The position numbers and the translations under genes were made by a program. From positions 1 through 64,000 of the forward strand of contig CAKZLY010000020.1 of the NCBI GenBank assembly GCA_937127445.1: a DNA stretch of 64,000 nucleotides. The letters run 5' to 3'. Below the pieces are notes generated by a model. That model was given only the letters and a program-made list of their open reading frames with translations, searched no databases and was not told the origin of the DNA. The stretch is from Eximiradius sp. GTDB taxonomy: Bacteria; Bacteroidota; Ignavibacteria; Kapaibacteriales; UBA2268. Positions 1-8,319 of the stretch are shown here, one piece after another (the stretch's first letter is position 1; each line of letters starts with the position of its first letter).

Positions 1-95
1 TTTATTAACAGAGATGATAACGTATTACAAAGAGAGCAAAACCATTCTAAACACAATTAACACATATTAAATTAACAATTTTTGGAGATAATGCA

Positions 96-608
96 ATGAA
101 AAAGGTTGGAATGGTTTGGCTTATTATATTTATTATTAGTTATTCAACTGTATTATCAGATATTAAAAGAAAAGAATATTATCCACCTGAAAACTATTGT
201 CGCGCTAAAGCAACCGTTGCTATAATTCTTGAAAAATTGGGACTCGGCCCAACAGGCGAATGTGAAGTTCGATGTCCCAAAGGTACTACAGCTCGATGTA
301 TAGCAGGTTTCTTTGAGGCTAGTTGTGAATGTCATAAAAACTCTGGATCCTCTGCACATTTTAGCATTCCAGGAGGTATTTCTGACCAACATATGCAAAT
401 CGCAAACGATTTCATTCATTTTTGCAACCAATCAACAAGTATAAATATTCAATCGCTTGGAACTTATGTTTTAAAAGCCAAAGAAGCAATAGAACAGAAT
501 GATCATATGGTGTTTACCGATTACGAAATGGCCTATGATGCACTTTTTGATCAACTATCAACCTCTGAAGTGATGGAAATAGAGAATTGGATAAATAACT
601 ACAAATAA
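96..608 (+). CDS. Small exported cysteine-rich protein, function unknown
   Basis: I do not recognise this 170-residue protein. It begins with a Lys-Lys followed by a hydrophobic stretch (about residues 5-21), which reads as a Sec signal peptide. The mature part has a dense cysteine cluster between residues 36 and 78 (YC, GEC, RCP, RC, CEC), one more Cys near 110, and then an acidic, helix-like, cysteine-free tail. That suggests a disulfide-bonded periplasmic or surface protein. A GGAG ribosome site lies 8 bases before the ATG. It is followed by a strong hairpin and then an exported TlpA-like gene, so the neighbour could be its redox partner (inference). Its opening residues (MKKxGMV) resemble those of the small exported protein at 2445. 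Confidence 0.6.
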   Translation: MKKVGMVWLIIFIISYSTVLSDIKRKEYYPPENYCRAKATVAIILEKLGLGPTGECEVRCPKGTTARCIAGFFEASCECHKNSGSSAHFSIPGGISDQHMQIANDFIHFCNQSTSINIQSLGTYVLKAKEAIEQNDHMVFTDYEMAYDALFDQLSTSEVMEIENWINNYK

Positions 609-623
609 TTATAATTTTTACAA

Positions 624-653
624 CACCTCGAACCTTTTGAAGGGTTCGAGGTG
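624..653 (+). terminator. Hairpin between the small exported gene and the TlpA-like gene
   Basis: An 11-bp perfect stem (CACCTCGAACC with its complement) closes an 8-base loop just after the stop at 608. Only a weak T/A-rich tail follows, so it could be a terminator or an mRNA-stabilising 3' hairpin. Confidence 0.6.
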
Positions 654-688
654 CAGTATTATTATAAAAATAAAAAGGGAGTAGAATT

Positions 689-2401
689 ATGAAAAGTTTT
701 TTTATTGGCTCAATCTACATTTTGCTCATTTTTTTAAACTGTTTAAATTTATTATCTTTTGATATTGTCGGTAAAGTATCAATTTCGTGTATACATACTC
801 CAACTGTAGCTAATATTAAAGTAACATCCTTGACAGATAGTATTTCCGAAAAAATTTATACTGTTGATGAAAAGGGGAATTTTCGATTGAACCTTCAGAA
901 ACCTGGATTTTATGAATTTAATGTAACAGGAATAAGCTCAGAACATCATAATTTTCTATATTATTGCAATGCAAATAAAGCAAATACATTTATTGACATT
1001 AGCTTACCACCAATAGTATTCCCAAATGATACTTTTTTTGTTTTAGGGAATTTTAATGATTTCGAGTTTGATTGCAAACACAAAATGAAAAAAATAAGTG
1101 CTGATGAGTATGAAATTAACATTTACTATCCGAAAGATACTTTAATTTACCAAATTTATTATTATGATCATATCAACGAATATTATCGTAGTTTCAATGG
1201 GAACCAAAAAAATGATAAGTATAAATTAGACAAAGCAGGTGATTACTATTCAATAATGGTTGACAATCGCCCCAATAAAACCATACGATTTAAAAAATGT
1301 TCATCCAATTATAATTTATCCAAACCGATAGTTGTCTTCAAAAGCGATTTACTTAACAAAGAATTTTACAATTTTCAAGAGAAAGTATCGAACCAAAAAG
1401 ACCTATTTAATTTTTCTAGTACAATAGAAGATAAGGAAAAGACTTTAGAGCAAAAAAATATGAAATTAAATGATTTTGCCCAAAAATTAGAAAATCATAT
1501 AAATTATTACAATGCTGTTTTTGATACGACCAAAAATATAGCTATAAAGAAATATATCGCGGCTTACATTCCCAACTATCTTTCAACCATTTACATGTTA
1601 AATAGAATCAATCTATTAGGAATAAAACTATTTCCTATTAAATATTCAAAAAGTTTTATGAAAGAAACATTTAGGCTAGTTGAAATTACTTCACCATTGA
1701 GGGAATATTTGAAATATTCAGATGGTGTTATATTTGCTTCGTGTCTATTATATGAAGATAATGTATATGATATTAACAAAACTTTTCTACATTACATTAA
1801 TTATTCCAAAAACACAAGATATAAAATGAAAGAGTTGGAAAAAGCTATATTATATTATAAGATGGATGATTATAATGAAAAACTTTTTAAGTATTATTCA
1901 GGATTATACATTACAATGTTTCCTGATGACACCTTTGTTAAATTCCTGAAAGAATATTTGAAAAGCACAGATTTACGTGGAAAAACATTACCAAAATTTC
2001 ATATTAGCAATCTTTTTGATTCAAAAAAAATAATTTCAAGCGATGAACTAAGAGGCAAATATACTCTAATAGATTTTTGGTCAACTTATTGTGGACCTTG
2101 TATAAAAGAAATACCTAAATTAATCGAAGCAAAAAGGAAATATCCTGAACTTAATATTCTAAGTATTAGTTTCGATAGCGACAGTCAAAGAGTACAGCAA
2201 TTTGTATCTAAACGTTTTACAGAGCCATGGATACATGGAATAGAGCCTAAAAGCTTTTTAAGTGATATTGCTCAAAGACTTGGAATTATAAGCATACCTT
2301 ATTTAATATTAGTAGATCCAGAAATGAACATAGTAGCTACAACTGGTGAATTGCGCGGCGATAGAATGTTTACAACCTTAGATAAAATATTAAAAAAATA
2401 A
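689..2401 (+). CDS. Exported TlpA-family thioredoxin-like protein with long N-terminal region
   Basis: 570 residues. A hydrophobic signal or anchor segment occupies residues 4-24. The C-terminal ~140 residues form a TlpA/ResA-type thioredoxin domain: the sequence runs 'LIDFWSTYCGPC' with the active-site pair Cys468/Cys471, and a cis-Pro-type 'SIPYLILVDP' follows about 80 residues later. The N-terminal ~430 residues contain a beta-rich part (an FVLGNFNDF stretch that faintly resembles an E-set carbohydrate-binding domain) and a long helical part, as in Bacteroidota 'DUF4369 plus thioredoxin' proteins. Likely role: disulfide exchange outside the cytoplasm, with the adjacent cysteine-rich exported protein as a candidate substrate (inference). 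Codon use is very AT-rich, like the rest of this segment. A GGGAG ribosome site precedes the ATG. Confidence 0.75.
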   Translation: MKSFFIGSIYILLIFLNCLNLLSFDIVGKVSISCIHTPTVANIKVTSLTDSISEKIYTVDEKGNFRLNLQKPGFYEFNVTGISSEHHNFLYYCNANKANTFIDISLPPIVFPNDTFFVLGNFNDFEFDCKHKMKKISADEYEINIYYPKDTLIYQIYYYDHINEYYRSFNGNQKNDKYKLDKAGDYYSIMVDNRPNKTIRFKKCSSNYNLSKPIVVFKSDLLNKEFYNFQEKVSNQKDLFNFSSTIEDKEKTLEQKNMKLNDFAQKLENHINYYNAVFDTTKNIAIKKYIAAYIPNYLSTIYMLNRINLLGIKLFPIKYSKSFMKETFRLVEITSPLREYLKYSDGVIFASCLLYEDNVYDINKTFLHYINYSKNTRYKMKELEKAILYYKMDDYNEKLFKYYSGLYITMFPDDTFVKFLKEYLKSTDLRGKTLPKFHISNLFDSKKIISSDELRGKYTLIDFWSTYCGPCIKEIPKLIEAKRKYPELNILSISFDSDSQRVQQFVSKRFTEPWIHGIEPKSFLSDIAQRLGIISIPYLILVDPEMNIVATTGELRGDRMFTTLDKILKK

Positions 2402-2444
2402 TTTGCAAATTTTTTTATCAACAAATACAATAAATTAAATAATA

Positions 2445-2813
2445 ATGAAAAAGCTTGGAATGGTTATCCTATTATTGTATTTCAGCAGTTCAGCACTTCA
2501 AGCAGGGACATTGTCGCCATATTGTCCGGAAGGACATGTCAATAAAAGACTTGATAGAGAATTATCAGTTCCAAAGAACGAAACAGGTAGTTGGGTTGAA
2601 ATTAATCATCGATACAAAGATGGAGAACCCGATTGGGGCAATAGCGCTTGTATTGACCCTGGCACTTCATGCCATTATGGTGATTGGTTTACTTGGTGGT
2701 TTGGAATGGTTCAGCCTCCGGTCAACGAAAACTGTAAACCGGAATTAATAGATTTTGTTCCTGGTGATTACAATCCAGATACAGGTGAGTATTTACCTGT
2801 GAAAGAAAAATAA
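2445..2813 (+). CDS. Small exported cysteine-containing protein, function unknown
   Basis: 122 residues, not recognised. The N-terminus (MKKLGMVILLLYFSSSALQA) is a clear signal peptide, with likely cleavage after ALQA. The mature protein has four cysteines (PYC, SAC, TSC, ENC), many aromatic residues (WFTWWFGM) and an acidic C-terminus. Its first codons are nearly identical at DNA level to those of the gene at 96, while the mature parts differ. This is a pattern seen in families of small secreted peptides that share an export leader. It is followed by a terminator and then a second, broken TlpA-like gene. It loosely recalls small NVEALA-type Bacteroidota exported peptides, but I see no NVEALA motif. 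Confidence 0.6.
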   Translation: MKKLGMVILLLYFSSSALQAGTLSPYCPEGHVNKRLDRELSVPKNETGSWVEINHRYKDGEPDWGNSACIDPGTSCHYGDWFTWWFGMVQPPVNENCKPELIDFVPGDYNPDTGEYLPVKEK

Positions 2814-2850
2814 TTGCAATTTGTGGAGTATCAACATTCGCGAGTTTTTG

Positions 2851-2889
2851 GGGAGATTGGATATTAAAATAACAATCTCCTCTTTTTTT
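2851..2889 (+). terminator. Rho-independent terminator after the small exported gene
   Basis: GGAGATTG at 2852-2859 pairs with CAATCTCC at 2873-2880 across a 13-base loop, and is followed at once by TCTTTTTTTG. The T-run makes this a convincing intrinsic terminator. Confidence 0.75.
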
Positions 2890-2926
2890 GATTTTCGATA
2901 TGTAATAAATAAAACGGGGTTACGCT

Positions 2927-4782
2927 ATGAAAAAAAATTTTTATATATTTATTTTACTCTTTGTTTCATTTATTCATTGTAACAAATCTTTTGCCGGGTT
3001 GACTATTTAAATAGTATCAGCAGAAAACAATGAAGAGGTTAAGAATACTGTTTTAGAAAATCACAAATATTATTTTAAAGTTTTTTCGAATTTTCCAGTA
3101 AATAATCATAGTCATTACTGTGCAATTTATGGTTGTTATTTTTACAACGATACAAGAATAAATAATAATTTTTCCAAAGCGCAATTAGTCTATAACAAAG
3201 AAAAAAAATGTTTACTTTCAGATAACTTCTCAATTCCTCAAAATAGTACGTTATTATTTGTGCGAGTATATGAAAATGACAAAATACTAATTAATATGGA
3301 ATATTATCCAGTTATCAATCAAAAAGGTGAATTTAACAAAGGGACCGCAGAATATTTCATTTCAAATGGTGAAACCGAAGAAGCATCTGATTTTTTTAAG
3401 TACGAAAGGGAAATGTACCCTGATAACGTAAATGTTTTTGCATTAAAATGGATTAATAAGATTGTAAATCAAGTTGATACAAAAGAAAATATTCAAAAAG
3501 AAATTAAATCAGATTTGCTGGAAATAGATAAAATCGAAACTGAATTATCCAATAAATCAATAATTTACTTTATTGGATATTATCTTATGGATGATACAAC
3601 TAATTATGAAAAAACGATATTAAATATTTCAAATTTCAAGAACATCCCAATATTGAATAATTACTTTATTGCGGACTTTTTTCAATCAATATTGACAATA
3701 AATAAAACACCTGAACAAATTGGTAAAGATAGCATATTTGTTAAAATTCTCGCCAATAATCCTGAATCTCGATTAGCTGAAATTGCTTTTAATAGCGGAC
3801 AAATCTTTGATTATTTCCTACCTAATTCAAAAAATGCTATAACAATAATTAATTTTATAGAAAATAAACAATAATATTCTTCTGAATATAAGTGAACAAC
3901 TTGCATATATTCTTTACTCTTCATTTTCGTCGGATACAATGCAAAGGAAAAGAGCTCTCAGCATTACGAATGGCTTACTGATGCTGCTCTATCAAGACAA
4001 CGATTTTTGTGAAAGAATTGCTTCGCCATTTACAATAGATCCTTTAAATCATTTTTCTTTAAAAATAAGTTCGTTGTATAATTTCGCAACAATATTATTT
4101 TTTAATACAAATAATATTGAAAAAGGTTTGGAATTACAAAACTATATTATGACAAAATCTCAACCTGGCGATGAGGATTATTTAGAAGCTGTATTGTATA
4201 AAGCACGATTTTTCCCAAAAGCTCAGATGTATGATCCTATGCTAATATAGTATGCGAAATCTTATCAACTTAATTCATCGAAAAAAAAATATAAAAAGAA
4301 TAAAAAAATACCTAAGTGAGATTATTAATTTAGAAGACGAAGAATATGTTGATCTTTTCAATACAATTACTATCACTAATCAAACTCCAGCATCATTTCA
4401 AATATACATTGGACCAGATATTATTACTCTTGATAATAGTATAGTAAATTTGAGAAGAGGGAAGTACTTACTTGAATTTTACTCAAAAAATTGCACATTT
4501 TGCAAAGCAAATCTAAAATCATTAAACAACTACTCTGAAGATTTTTTTCACTCAAACAGTTTGAAAGTGTTAATAGTAACAAATATTGAAAAATCTCAGT
4601 ATAAAAAAGAATTTTCAGCATATAATTTCCCCTATAAAATAGCATTAAACTCAAAAGAATTAATTTCATTTTTCAATGTTCAATTTTTTCCAGTAACAAT
4701 AATAATTGAGAACAATATTGTAAAAAGAAGAATTGACGGAGGGAGTAAAAATAGAATAATTTTAGAAGACATATTGAAATAA
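2927..4782 (+). pseudogene. Decayed exported TlpA/thioredoxin-like gene (two in-frame stops, two frameshifts)
   Basis: Reading from ATG 2927 gives a signal peptide (MKKNFYIFILLFVSFIHC), then a TAA at 3008-3010. The same frame then stays open and protein-like through to 3874. The reading continues in the +1 frame from about 3861 ('NILLNISEQLAYILYS') to a TAG at 4248-4250. It shifts again at an A9 run (4281-4289) into the frame ending at 4782. The final part is a thioredoxin-like domain with a CTFC active site and 'FFPVTIII' as the cis-Pro loop. Rejoined, it would be a roughly 618-codon exported protein with the same architecture as the intact gene at 689. Two nonsense codons plus two shifts argue for true decay rather than a single sequencing error. 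The frames at 3260-3874, 3939-4250 and 4252-4782 are its remnants. Confidence 0.75.
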
Positions 4783-4991: not shown

Positions 4992-6299
4992 CTAAATAAA
5001 AAATTTAAGTATGAACAGAATTGCAACAATGATTGTAATTAAAGATACTTCTTTAAATTTACCACTCAGTATTTTAAGTAAAACATATGAAAGAACGCCA
5101 AAGACTATGCCATCAGAAATAGAGAAAGTAAGCGGCATCATTACGATTGTGAAAAAAACAGGGATAAGCTCTGTGTAATCGTCGAGTTCGATATTTTTTA
5201 TTGGGGTCATCATCATTGCTCCGACTAAAATCAGAGCAGATGCAGTAGCTGCTGATGGTATCATCAAGAAAACTGGCGAGAAAAGCAATGCCAACACAAA
5301 TAACAACCCAGTAGTGAGTGCTGTCAGACCTGTTCTGCCACCTTCTGCAACACCTGCTGCACTTTCGACGTAAGTTGTAACAGTAGAAGTTCCAAGCATA
5401 GCACCAGCTGTTGTTCCGATTGCGTCAGCCATAAGTGCTTGTTTCACACGGGGCACTCTACCTTTGCTATCTAAGAAATTCGCTTTTGATGAAACTCCAA
5501 TAAGTGTTCCCACAGTATCAAACATATCGACAAATAGAAAGGTAAAACAAACTATCACCATGTCCATTGAAAAAATTTCAGACCACTCAAACTTCATAAA
5601 AATTGGAGAAAGCGAAGGCGGAGCAACCTCAAAACTCGACGGAATAATCGTTAGGTTAAGCGGAATACCAATCAAAGTCCCGACCAAAATACCTATCAGT
5701 AATGCCCCTTTTATTCTTAGCGCAAGAAGTGTGCCAGCAACTAAGAGCGAGATAATCGTAATCATAGGAGCAGCGCTATGAGAAACATCCGTAATGTTGC
5801 CCAAGGCAACAAAAGTAGCATCGTTGCTAACAATAATTCCGGCATTTTTCAGCCCAATAAAGGCAATAAACAAACCAATGCCGACAGAAATAGCATGCTT
5901 TATATTGGTCGGGATAGAGTTCACAATTAATTCTCGAACATTGAAAATAGTGAGAAGAATAAAAATGATACCTTCAATAAAAACAGCAGTTAAAGCAAAT
6001 TGCCAGCTATGCCCCATTCCAAGAACAACTGTAAAAGCAAAGAAGGCGTTCAATCCCATTCCGGGTGCAAGAGCAAAAGGTAATTTTGCGTAAAACGCCA
6101 TTACCAAAGTTGCGATTGCCGAAGCAAGAGCAGTTGCAGTAAAAACTGCGCCTTTATCCATTCCAGCTGCGCTAAGAATTTGAGGATTTACAGCAAGGAT
6201 ATAAGCCATTGTCATAAAGGTTGTAAATCCAGCAATGAGCTCTGTTTTGAAGTCTGTTTGATTATCGGATAACTTAAAATAATTAACAAGAAATTTCAT
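4992..6299 (-). CDS. NCS2-family purine (adenine/guanine/hypoxanthine) permease
   Basis: 435 residues, the usual length for AzgA/PbuG-type permeases. It opens with the family's characteristic 'TELIAGFTTFMTMAYILAVNPQIL' region, has 'PFALAPGMGLNAFFAF' in the third transmembrane region, and a conserved 'GTSTVTTYVESAAGVAEGGRTGL' loop near residue 300. About 12-14 hydrophobic segments are visible. It should import purine bases by H+ symport across the inner membrane. Its start lies 7 bases after the stop of the DUF5020 gene, so the two are almost certainly co-transcribed. I cannot tell which purine is preferred. No purine riboswitch was recognised in the operon leader. Confidence 0.9.
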   Translation of the reverse strand: MKFLVNYFKLSDNQTDFKTELIAGFTTFMTMAYILAVNPQILSAAGMDKGAVFTATALASAIATLVMAFYAKLPFALAPGMGLNAFFAFTVVLGMGHSWQFALTAVFIEGIIFILLTIFNVRELIVNSIPTNIKHAISVGIGLFIAFIGLKNAGIIVSNDATFVALGNITDVSHSAAPMITIISLLVAGTLLALRIKGALLIGILVGTLIGIPLNLTIIPSSFEVAPPSLSPIFMKFEWSEIFSMDMVIVCFTFLFVDMFDTVGTLIGVSSKANFLDSKGRVPRVKQALMADAIGTTAGAMLGTSTVTTYVESAAGVAEGGRTGLTALTTGLLFVLALLFSPVFLMIPSAATASALILVGAMMMTPIKNIELDDYTELIPVFFTIVMMPLTFSISDGIVFGVLSYVLLKILSGKFKEVSLITIIVAILFILKFFI

Positions 6300-6306
6300 A
6301 AATCAC

Positions 6307-6990
6307 CTAAAAATTGTACTTAATTGCTACTGTTGGATTGACTTTGAAACCGCTCTTGCCTGCGAAATCGTTACTTAGCTCAATTTCGCTACCTATGGAA
6401 AATGTTTTATTAATGTTGTACCAAATTTGCGGTTCGCTTAGAAACACAAAGTTTGATTTTTTAATATGATTTTGGAAATTATCTTTCGAAACATAGTGCT
6501 TTTCTCTCCAAAAATCAGCGAATCCACTAAAAGTAAGCTTCCCATCCAACAAATGTAAATACCATACTCCAGTGAGTTGAAAATTATGTGGCTCTTCGTT
6601 TCTCTCTATATTCTTGTACATAGCTTGAAGGGTAAAGCCTTTTGTGAAATCAGGAGAATTCCAGCTATATGAAGCACCGACAAGGTAGCAATTATTAAAC
6701 TGAATTGCAGTATTAAAACCGCCATTATATTCAACGTGTGCAGCAATTGGGAAATCCCAGAATTTCAAGTCACGTGAAATTTCCCAGTATGCTTCTGTTG
6801 CACCTTTTTTGCTATGGTTAAAATCGACGAAGAAAAAAGTGCTGCCGTAACTATCTGGCTTGAATTGCTCTAAGGTAGTTGTAATATACTCGCGACCATT
6901 TCCAAGGTCATAGTGAACTTGCAGATTTTGCGAAATCAAGGATGAAAAAGGTATCAGAAAAATTGTCAATAACAGTAATTTTTTAAACAT
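6307..6990 (-). CDS. DUF5020-family outer-membrane protein (Tsx-like)
   Basis: 227 residues with a signal peptide (MFKKLLLLTIFLIPFSSLIS). The mature part alternates beta strands and ends in a C-terminal aromatic residue (YNF), as outer-membrane beta-barrels do. 'LQVHYDLGNGREYITTTLEQFKPDSYGSTFFFVDF' matches the DUF5020 family, which is distantly related to nucleoside-specific Tsx channels. As first gene of an operon with a purine permease, it probably passes nucleosides or purine bases across the outer membrane (inference from context and family). A good GGAGG ribosome site precedes the ATG. Confidence 0.8.
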   Translation of the reverse strand: MFKKLLLLTIFLIPFSSLISQNLQVHYDLGNGREYITTTLEQFKPDSYGSTFFFVDFNHSKKGATEAYWEISRDLKFWDFPIAAHVEYNGGFNTAIQFNNCYLVGASYSWNSPDFTKGFTLQAMYKNIERNEEPHNFQLTGVWYLHLLDGKLTFSGFADFWREKHYVSKDNFQNHIKKSNFVFLSEPQIWYNINKTFSIGSEIELSNDFAGKSGFKVNPTVAIKYNF

Positions 6991-7083
6991 AATACCTCCA
7001 TTAAAAAAGAAGTAAAGTTAATAAAAAAAATTGAAATTCGAGTTTATGAATTCTGTTTGATTTGTAAACGAATATACTTTCAT

Positions 7084-7112
7084 AAAAAAACGAGCCACCC
7101 AGAAGGGTGGCT
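7084..7112 (-). terminator. Rho-independent terminator downstream of the dksA-like gene
   Basis: On the minus strand AGCCACCC pairs with GGGTGGCT around a 4-base loop (positions 7112-7093), followed by CG and a run of seven T. It ends the ileS/dksA-like transcription unit 22 bases after its last stop codon. Confidence 0.85.
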
Positions 7113-7134
7113 ATAGTATATGTATCGCAATAAT

Positions 7135-8319
7135 TTACTCTTTAATAGGTTCAATTCTATCGATGCCGTCTTCGGGACATCTTTGATGAATTTTGTATGA
7201 AGCAGAAAGAGTGGTAATAGGCACAGCAAGAAGTCTTTCCTTAGCAATCAAGATACCGCAAACACGGCAAATACCGTAGGTTTTATCTTTAATTCTCAGT
7301 AGAGCTTCATCTAACTTCTTTATGTAGTCTTTTATTCTTTGAATTTGAGCGTAAGTTTTTTCTTTTTCCATAGCTTCGGAGCCTTGTTCCGCCATATGCA
7401 TAGAATAAATCATGCTTTCTTCTGCAAAATCGTAGTTAGTAAGGTCTTCGAGACGTTCATAAAGCATCTGAAGTTCGTCAAGAGCTTCGCTTCGAGCTTC
7501 TAAAATAATATTTTTGAACATTTCTAAGTCTTCATCGGAATAGCGGACGTCTGGCTTTGGAGCCTGTGGTTCGATAGGAGTAGGCTTCGACTCTTGTTTT
7601 TTAACAACTGATTTCGGAGGAACGGGCTTGGGTTCGGCTTTTGGTTTCTCAACAATTTTCTCAATAGGTTTTGTAACGGGTTTCGGTTCTTCCGCTTTAG
7701 GTTTTTCTTCATTTTCTGTTTTTTTACGAACAGTGCGTTTTTTTGAAGTCAGTTCTTCCTCGTATTTAATAGGTTCGAGCAAAGCATCATCTTTAATTAT
7801 TTTTGGCTTTGCATCTTGCTTTATTTCAGTTTTTGTCTCTTCGACCACTTTTGTTACTTTCTTTTTCTCGTCTTTGGGTTGCTCGACTTTTTCTTCGGCT
7901 TTGGCTGCTTTTTTAGCAGATTTTGTTTTTGGCATTGGTTCGGGTTCGGCGACTGCAACTACTTCAGCCTTTTTCTTTGCTGATTTTGACGAAGCGGGTT
8001 TTACTTCTTGCTTTATTTTTACTTCAGATTTTGCTTCGGCTTCCTTTTGAGCAGTTTTCTTGGTCTTTTTTTCGTCTTTGGGTTGCTCGACTTTTTCTTC
8101 GGCTTTGGTTGCTTTTTTAGCAGATTTTGTTTTTGCCGTTGGTTCGGGTTCGGCGACTGCAACTACTTCAGCCTTTTTCTTTGCTGATTTTGACGAAGTG
8201 GGCGCTGTCGCCTTTGACGAATTAATATCCTCAATAGGTTTTTCTACTTTTTTAGTAGATTTTGTAACCTTTTTTGGAGTAGTCTCGACTACTTCTTCTT
8301 TTTTCTTCTTTGTAGGCAT
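7135..8319 (-). CDS. DksA/TraR-like protein with long Lys/Ala-rich N-terminal repeats
   Basis: 394 residues, far longer than classical DksA (~150). Residues 1-260 are low-complexity, rich in Lys, Ala, Glu and Pro, resembling histone H1-like/AlgP tails. A 68-codon unit is present twice in tandem (DNA copies at about 7868-8000 and 8072-8204, offset exactly 204 bases). Residues ~265-345 form a charged coiled coil as in DksA. The C-terminus has the DksA/TraR signature 'YGICRVCG' (Cys351, Cys354) and 'ERLLAVPIT', but the second Cys pair is replaced by 'LSAS'; His378 and Cys381 follow. It lies downstream of ileS, an arrangement common in Bacteroidota (ileS-dksA). Likely a regulator acting at RNA polymerase, with a basic tail that could bind nucleic acid (inference). 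Confidence 0.8.
   Translation of the reverse strand: MPTKKKKEEVVETTPKKVTKSTKKVEKPIEDINSSKATAPTSSKSAKKKAEVVAVAEPEPTAKTKSAKKATKAEEKVEQPKDEKKTKKTAQKEAEAKSEVKIKQEVKPASSKSAKKKAEVVAVAEPEPMPKTKSAKKAAKAEEKVEQPKDEKKKVTKVVEETKTEIKQDAKPKIIKDDALLEPIKYEEELTSKKRTVRKKTENEEKPKAEEPKPVTKPIEKIVEKPKAEPKPVPPKSVVKKQESKPTPIEPQAPKPDVRYSDEDLEMFKNIILEARSEALDELQMLYERLEDLTNYDFAEESMIYSMHMAEQGSEAMEKEKTYAQIQRIKDYIKKLDEALLRIKDKTYGICRVCGILIAKERLLAVPITTLSASYKIHQRCPEDGIDRIEPIKE

Follow-up and report, generated by a model that had tools for sequence, protein, structure and literature searches.

Genes and features at the left end of the contig

The window, by which we mean the whole stretch of 64,000 nucleotides that was analysed, starts at base 1 of contig C20 in a genome of 2.45 Mb (G000). 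It opens with two pairs of genes, each coding for a small exported cysteine protein (small1 and small2) and a larger exported partner (Table 1). These two pairs of small protein and thioredoxin-type partner within 4.7 kb had been described in the original prediction, and our analysis confirmed their coordinates and open reading frames, the CGPC and CTFC motifs and the broken frame of the second partner.

Table 1. Features of the two cassettes in the window.
Feature	Position	Strand	Remarks
Leader of cassette 1	1..95	+	includes the 31-107 repeat and the 28-36 and 43-52 structure arms
small1, 170-aa exported protein	96..608	+	Cys-rich N-terminal part, helical C-terminal part
11-bp hairpin between small1 and TlpA	624..653	+	read directly in the sequence
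TlpA-type exported partner, 570 aa	689..2401	+	thioredoxin domain about 1979-2341, CGPC
Leader repeat	2439..2482	+	80% identity with 88-131; point of exchange in relatives
small2, 122-aa exported protein	2445..2813	+	homologues in G003, G086, G070, G042
Broken partner of small2, TlpA2 type	2927..4782	+	CTFC at 4492-4503

Small1 starts with MKKVGM and carries a signal peptide followed by seven cysteines, and small2 starts with MKKLGM and has four cysteines beyond its leader; both N-termini were called signal-peptide-like by inspection. Neither protein matched a Pfam or NCBIfam family, and no PDB entry matched the small proteins. The AlphaFold model of small1, made from three sequences (mean pLDDT 75.5), has a Cys-rich beta part at the N-terminus and four helices at the C-terminus, and a fold search with this model against the PDB gave no match (best E 0.3). 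An inverted repeat was detected at 609-667 around the hairpin that follows small1. This hairpin is a possible attenuator or terminator, and could raise the output of small1 above that of its partner.

The product of the first partner gene is, on its domain matches, a TlpA-type thioredoxin protein with a thioredoxin fold and a CxxC motif: the Pfam search matched PF13905 (Thioredoxin_8; E 1.3e-14) and PF00578 (4.3e-9). Its export signal, a hydrophobic N-terminus (MKSFFIGSIYILLIFLNCLNLLS), was judged by inspection and not with a dedicated predictor. The domain and the CGPC motif are shared with exported thioredoxins of the TlpA/ResA type, from which this protein differs by its long N-terminal region. 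The AlphaFold model of the partner, from only three sequences, was unusable (pLDDT 43.5). In the second partner a stop at 3008 and frame changes near 3870 and 4250 interrupt the reading frame, and the thioredoxin match at its end, where the CTFC motif is found, is weak.

Comparison of cassettes 1 and 2 by blastn and tblastx gave no similarity beyond the leader, their sole likeness being a 44-bp segment (88-131 and its repeat in Table 1). This agrees with the earlier remark that the mature small proteins are dissimilar. The original prediction had also taken the arrangement for a module that had been duplicated, and local duplication of one cassette could be ruled out, because the similarity is confined to the leader and the pair of cassette 2 has its own relatives in other genera (G086, G070 and G042). 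Judged by these alignments, the window pairs are a tandem of two different cassettes. What stands of the module is the recurrence of a small protein with a thioredoxin-type partner, as found for the families of small1, small2 and a third protein, small3, described below.

The closest named relatives are the congeners 'Ignavibacteria bacterium' SKW44 (G002; L037) and 'Bacteroidetes bacterium' UR.bin29 (G003; L038). UR.bin29 has all four genes in this order and, behind them, the same AzgA-type permease; its TlpA is 72% identical to that of the window. Comparing the window genome with its congeners, dN/dS was 0.26 for small1 (0.19 in the mature part), 0.16 for small2 (0.11), 0.13 for small3 (0.08) and 0.24 for TlpA. 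These low values show purifying selection, and small1, small2 and small3 are accordingly real genes. Furthermore, small2 and small3 are intact and constrained in the window genome though both of their partners are broken there, which suggests that the small proteins may do without their cognate partner or use another in its place. The broken partner of small3, of a 553-aa type, lies on the reverse strand of another contig of this genome (C1; L050, about 6100-7670), beside an intact small3.

Cognate pairs and the putative barrel gene R

Since no contig sequence precedes the window, the upstream side was taken from relatives. In the congeners, a gene coding for a 292-aa protein, R, lies directly upstream of small1; it is missing from the assembly of the window genome. 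The original prediction had advised a search for transport or regulator genes just upstream, and in addition to R this search yielded regulators, sigma-70-like or AraC-like, that are often adjacent to the modules (ten open reading frames matching sigma-70 region 4 or AraC-type HTH domains, some of them weakly).

Homologues of R were present in 37 of the 123 genomes of the order and fall into two kinds by tree, the deep forks of which are weak. Clade 2 is the generic DUF3078 type, found next to mscL and similar genes, whereas clade-1 R adjoins two genes, one for a small exported Cys protein and the next for its large exported partner, in which a CxxC thioredoxin domain is usually present. A small protein and partner were adjacent to R at 22/24 evaluable clade-1 loci and at 0/11 clade-2 loci (Fisher p 2e-7; gene tables scored by eye with the aid of a script, three loci cut by contig ends being excluded). 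At two clade-1 loci the R gene is on its own (L103 and L105). The arrangement small-partner-R recurs in a second order of the class (L191, and L190 and L192 with a Cys-rich small protein). PF11276 (DUF3078) matched 16/19 R sequences (best 2.1e-8), and the congener R scores under the curated threshold of this family (14.5 vs 25 bits). The family resemblance suggests that R is an outer-membrane barrel. A PDB sequence search with profiles of R and of the partners returned nothing meaningful. We know of no function for the barrels of the DUF3078 superfamily, of which clade-1 R is linked to cassettes and the generic clade is not.

Families built with profiles seeded with each small protein showed that the pairing is cognate. 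Small2 travels with TlpA2-type partners in five genomes of four genera (G000, G003, G086, G070, G042), small3 with the 553-aa partner (G000, G002, G007, G089) and small1 with TlpA (G000, G002, G003, G040). Members of the small1 family also have other neighbours, in G098 a TlpA-type protein of shorter length and in G022 a partner of a different kind, and additional small families pair with other partners. Partners of the 553 type have a common N-terminal thioredoxin-like stretch in which CxxC is invariant. At some other loci a separate large partner is followed by a CxxC protein, and at L130 a single protein matches both of these profiles; partners at L090, L098 and L106 have no CxxC. The possibility that the large partners are beta-propellers was dropped, with no support from Pfam, PDB or hhalign. 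In the phylum sample, neither small1 nor a full-length 553-type partner turned up outside the order, and the barrel-linked cassettes from another order of the class belong to other small families. Another family of small proteins has 16-19 cysteines and an exported partner of ~780 aa behind it; this family was observed in two orders of the class (L096 9742-12891, in reversed coordinates, L190 and L192).

Among the order's ordinary long TlpA genes, 0/13 had a convincing small neighbour, two flags raised by the script being set aside (a phosphatase downstream of one gene and a lipoprotein of one genus). A generic TlpA neighbourhood is thereby ruled out as an explanation, and the window TlpA stands apart from these ordinary genes by its small exported neighbour and by its link with R in relatives. 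The original expectation of small neighbours beside TlpA genes elsewhere is thus borne out next to clade-1 R and fails at ordinary long TlpA genes. A chance adjacency of unrelated exported genes could be proposed because a small exported Cys ORF lies upstream of a long exported ORF in 29/115 loci, but most of these 29 are the modules themselves. The contrast between the two clades of R, the conservation of cognate pairing across genera and the purifying selection also contradict chance, which we regard as extremely improbable. As gene order in these genomes attests, the small-partner pairing recurs across genera and the adjacency is not chance. This connects several unannotated families of small secreted proteins with dedicated partners of thioredoxin type and with a single DUF3078-superfamily clade.

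Exchange of cassettes and mobility of the block

In three genera, an unrelated pair has taken the place of the small protein and its partner together, within constant surroundings, with breakpoints at or near the start of the small gene. Between G090 and G089, which belong to one genus, the flank is ~79% identical and its last 100 bases are nearly identical, ending in the ATGAAAA of the small gene; the small gene and partner are unalignable throughout, and homology returns at the start of R (78%). Similarly, G023 and G098, also of one genus, share flanks (71-76% identical) and R (76%), and their small proteins and partners are unrelated. The congeners G002 and G003 are 99.7% identical across 3.6 kb containing R, small1 and TlpA, and diverge inside the leader that precedes the next small gene; beyond this point, small3 and its 553-type partner follow in one and small2 and TlpA2 in the other. 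As the flanking regions of this block are only about 81-94% alike, the block moved recently between the two species.

The insertion sites of the R-cassette block are consistent with mobility. In G002 the block is bordered by a U32-type gene and purL, a site that is empty in G003 and G001; in G003 it is bordered by an LRR gene and the permease, a site that is empty in G002 and G001. At the occupied U32-purL site (L037:6150 and 12060) the insert lies between AATAGTTGTAGC and AATACTTGTAGC, 12-bp imperfect direct repeats that are present as a single copy at the empty site of G003 (C45, L051, about 5137). These repeats are a possible target-site duplication without transposase. Unlike a transposon or integron cassette, the blocks of G002 and G003 contain no transposase or integrase, their open reading frames being R, small proteins and partners only. 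In the window genome, contigs C29 and C5 have an identical terminal stretch of 77 bases, the start of the region upstream of R, and the ends of C20 (window 31-107) and C1 share another exact 77-nt stretch, up to ATGAAAAAGGTT, that is followed by small1 or small3. This pattern of contig ends fits two islands whose identical R copies were collapsed in the assembly.

One explanation of these exchanges is polymorphic antagonism or self-recognition, in which the small protein would be secreted and act as a bacteriocin-like effector or as a ligand for recognition, the partner would provide its cognate maturation or protection, and a swap would alter strain specificity. Polymorphic effector-immunity loci, of the bacteriocin or CDI type, consist of a cognate two-gene unit, and whole-pair replacement is a pattern that resembles them. 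The likeness extends to the wholesale replacement of cognate pairs in a constant locus, as found in the three genera, and to recent horizontal transfer, as indicated by the nearly identical 3.6-kb block in diverged flanks and by the empty sites in relatives. However, the small proteins resemble no known family of toxins or immunity proteins, the partner is of thioredoxin type, and the intact small2 and small3 beside broken partners speak against the partner as an essential protector. We consider this explanation unlikely.

Some of the leaders upstream of the small genes also have a predicted structure, in which an outer stem is combined with a long hairpin and a pseudoknot of 8-9 bp, with one architecture in unrelated sequences. 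The pseudoknot pairs the hairpin loop with the segment that precedes the 3' arm of the outer stem, and this arm ends 39-51 nt ahead of the start codon. The structure was predicted upstream of the small gene at L037 (about 7130-7258), L100, L101, L117 and L130, that is in 5/21 leaders, compared with 19/840 shuffles and 6/250 control ORFs, and the allied leaders of G089 and G090 gave it no clear support. In the window only the 3' arms are present (28-36 and 43-52), the 5' half lying beyond the contig end. No Rfam family matched the leader.

A putative envelope system with interchangeable cargo

Our tentative reading, to which we give slightly less than an even chance, is that the two cassettes of the window are exchangeable parts of an envelope system composed of cargo, cognate partner and barrel. 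The small protein would be a variable, Sec-exported cargo, active at or beyond the cell surface, the thioredoxin domain of the partner would form or isomerise its disulfides, and the family-specific part of the partner would recognise it. R could anchor the small protein in the outer membrane or pass it through, and a swap of the pair would change the cargo and retain the shared promoter, leader and barrel. The cognate pairing, the association with R, the invariant CxxC of the 553-type partners and the swaps as units support this envelope-cargo reading, as do the low dN/dS of the mature small proteins (0.08-0.19), the PF11276 matches of R and the adjacent sigma-70 and AraC regulators. In contrast, the partners without CxxC, the lone R genes and the broken partners argue against it. 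Taken as a family, the cassettes suggest a system at the surface or for secretion, the cargo of which can be exchanged. With greater reservation, we propose an undescribed polymorphic envelope system of the class, in which barrel, promoter and leader may act as a socket, and cognate pairs of disulfide protein and oxidoreductase may be swapped through recombination at the leader, which would equip lineages with differing surface or secreted proteins for use in recognition or competition.

The CxxC partners and conserved cysteines could also be explained by periplasmic redox or metal handling, with the small Cys proteins as carriers or substrates reduced by the thioredoxin partners and R as a porin-like ligand barrel. 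The diversity and swapping of the small proteins would be unusual for a housekeeping carrier, and no known metal-binding family was matched, which makes this alternative quite improbable. As to the envelope-cargo reading, the three genera in which the same locus and surroundings contain different pairs represent natural swap experiments, by which the specificity for cargo and the job of the barrel are testable.

The cassette family is previously uncharacterised, and its barrel, regulators and swapping had been missed by the original prediction. The nearest known arrangement that we tested is found in clusters of NVEALA (PF14055), TolB_like lipoprotein (PF15869) and CTSC/DUF1573 genes in the same phylum (G341 and G442). 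In both cases a small exported Cys peptide is followed by a large exported protein and several dissimilar cassettes occur in tandem; in two of the NVEALA clusters a third protein with a CTSC motif follows. However, small1 and small2 have no PF14055 match, nor does any protein in the window genome, and membership of the small proteins in NVEALA was accordingly rejected. Unlike the TolB_like propellers, the partners do not match PF15869 and have no profile similarity to TolB_like, and their thioredoxin-domain resemblance to the NVEALA clusters is weak (hhalign prob 60). We found no description of a system like ours in the literature on NVEALA, DUF3078 and BF3164, and no paper describing the NVEALA-TolB_like-CTSC/DUF1573 clusters either. 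Lastly, the NVEALA clusters have no R barrel and instead have a signal peptidase gene (PF10502) nearby; signal peptidase I (S26) genes were observed among the NVEALA-TolB_like clusters at L156, L158 and L159 (G341, G442), and are possibly dedicated to those peptides.
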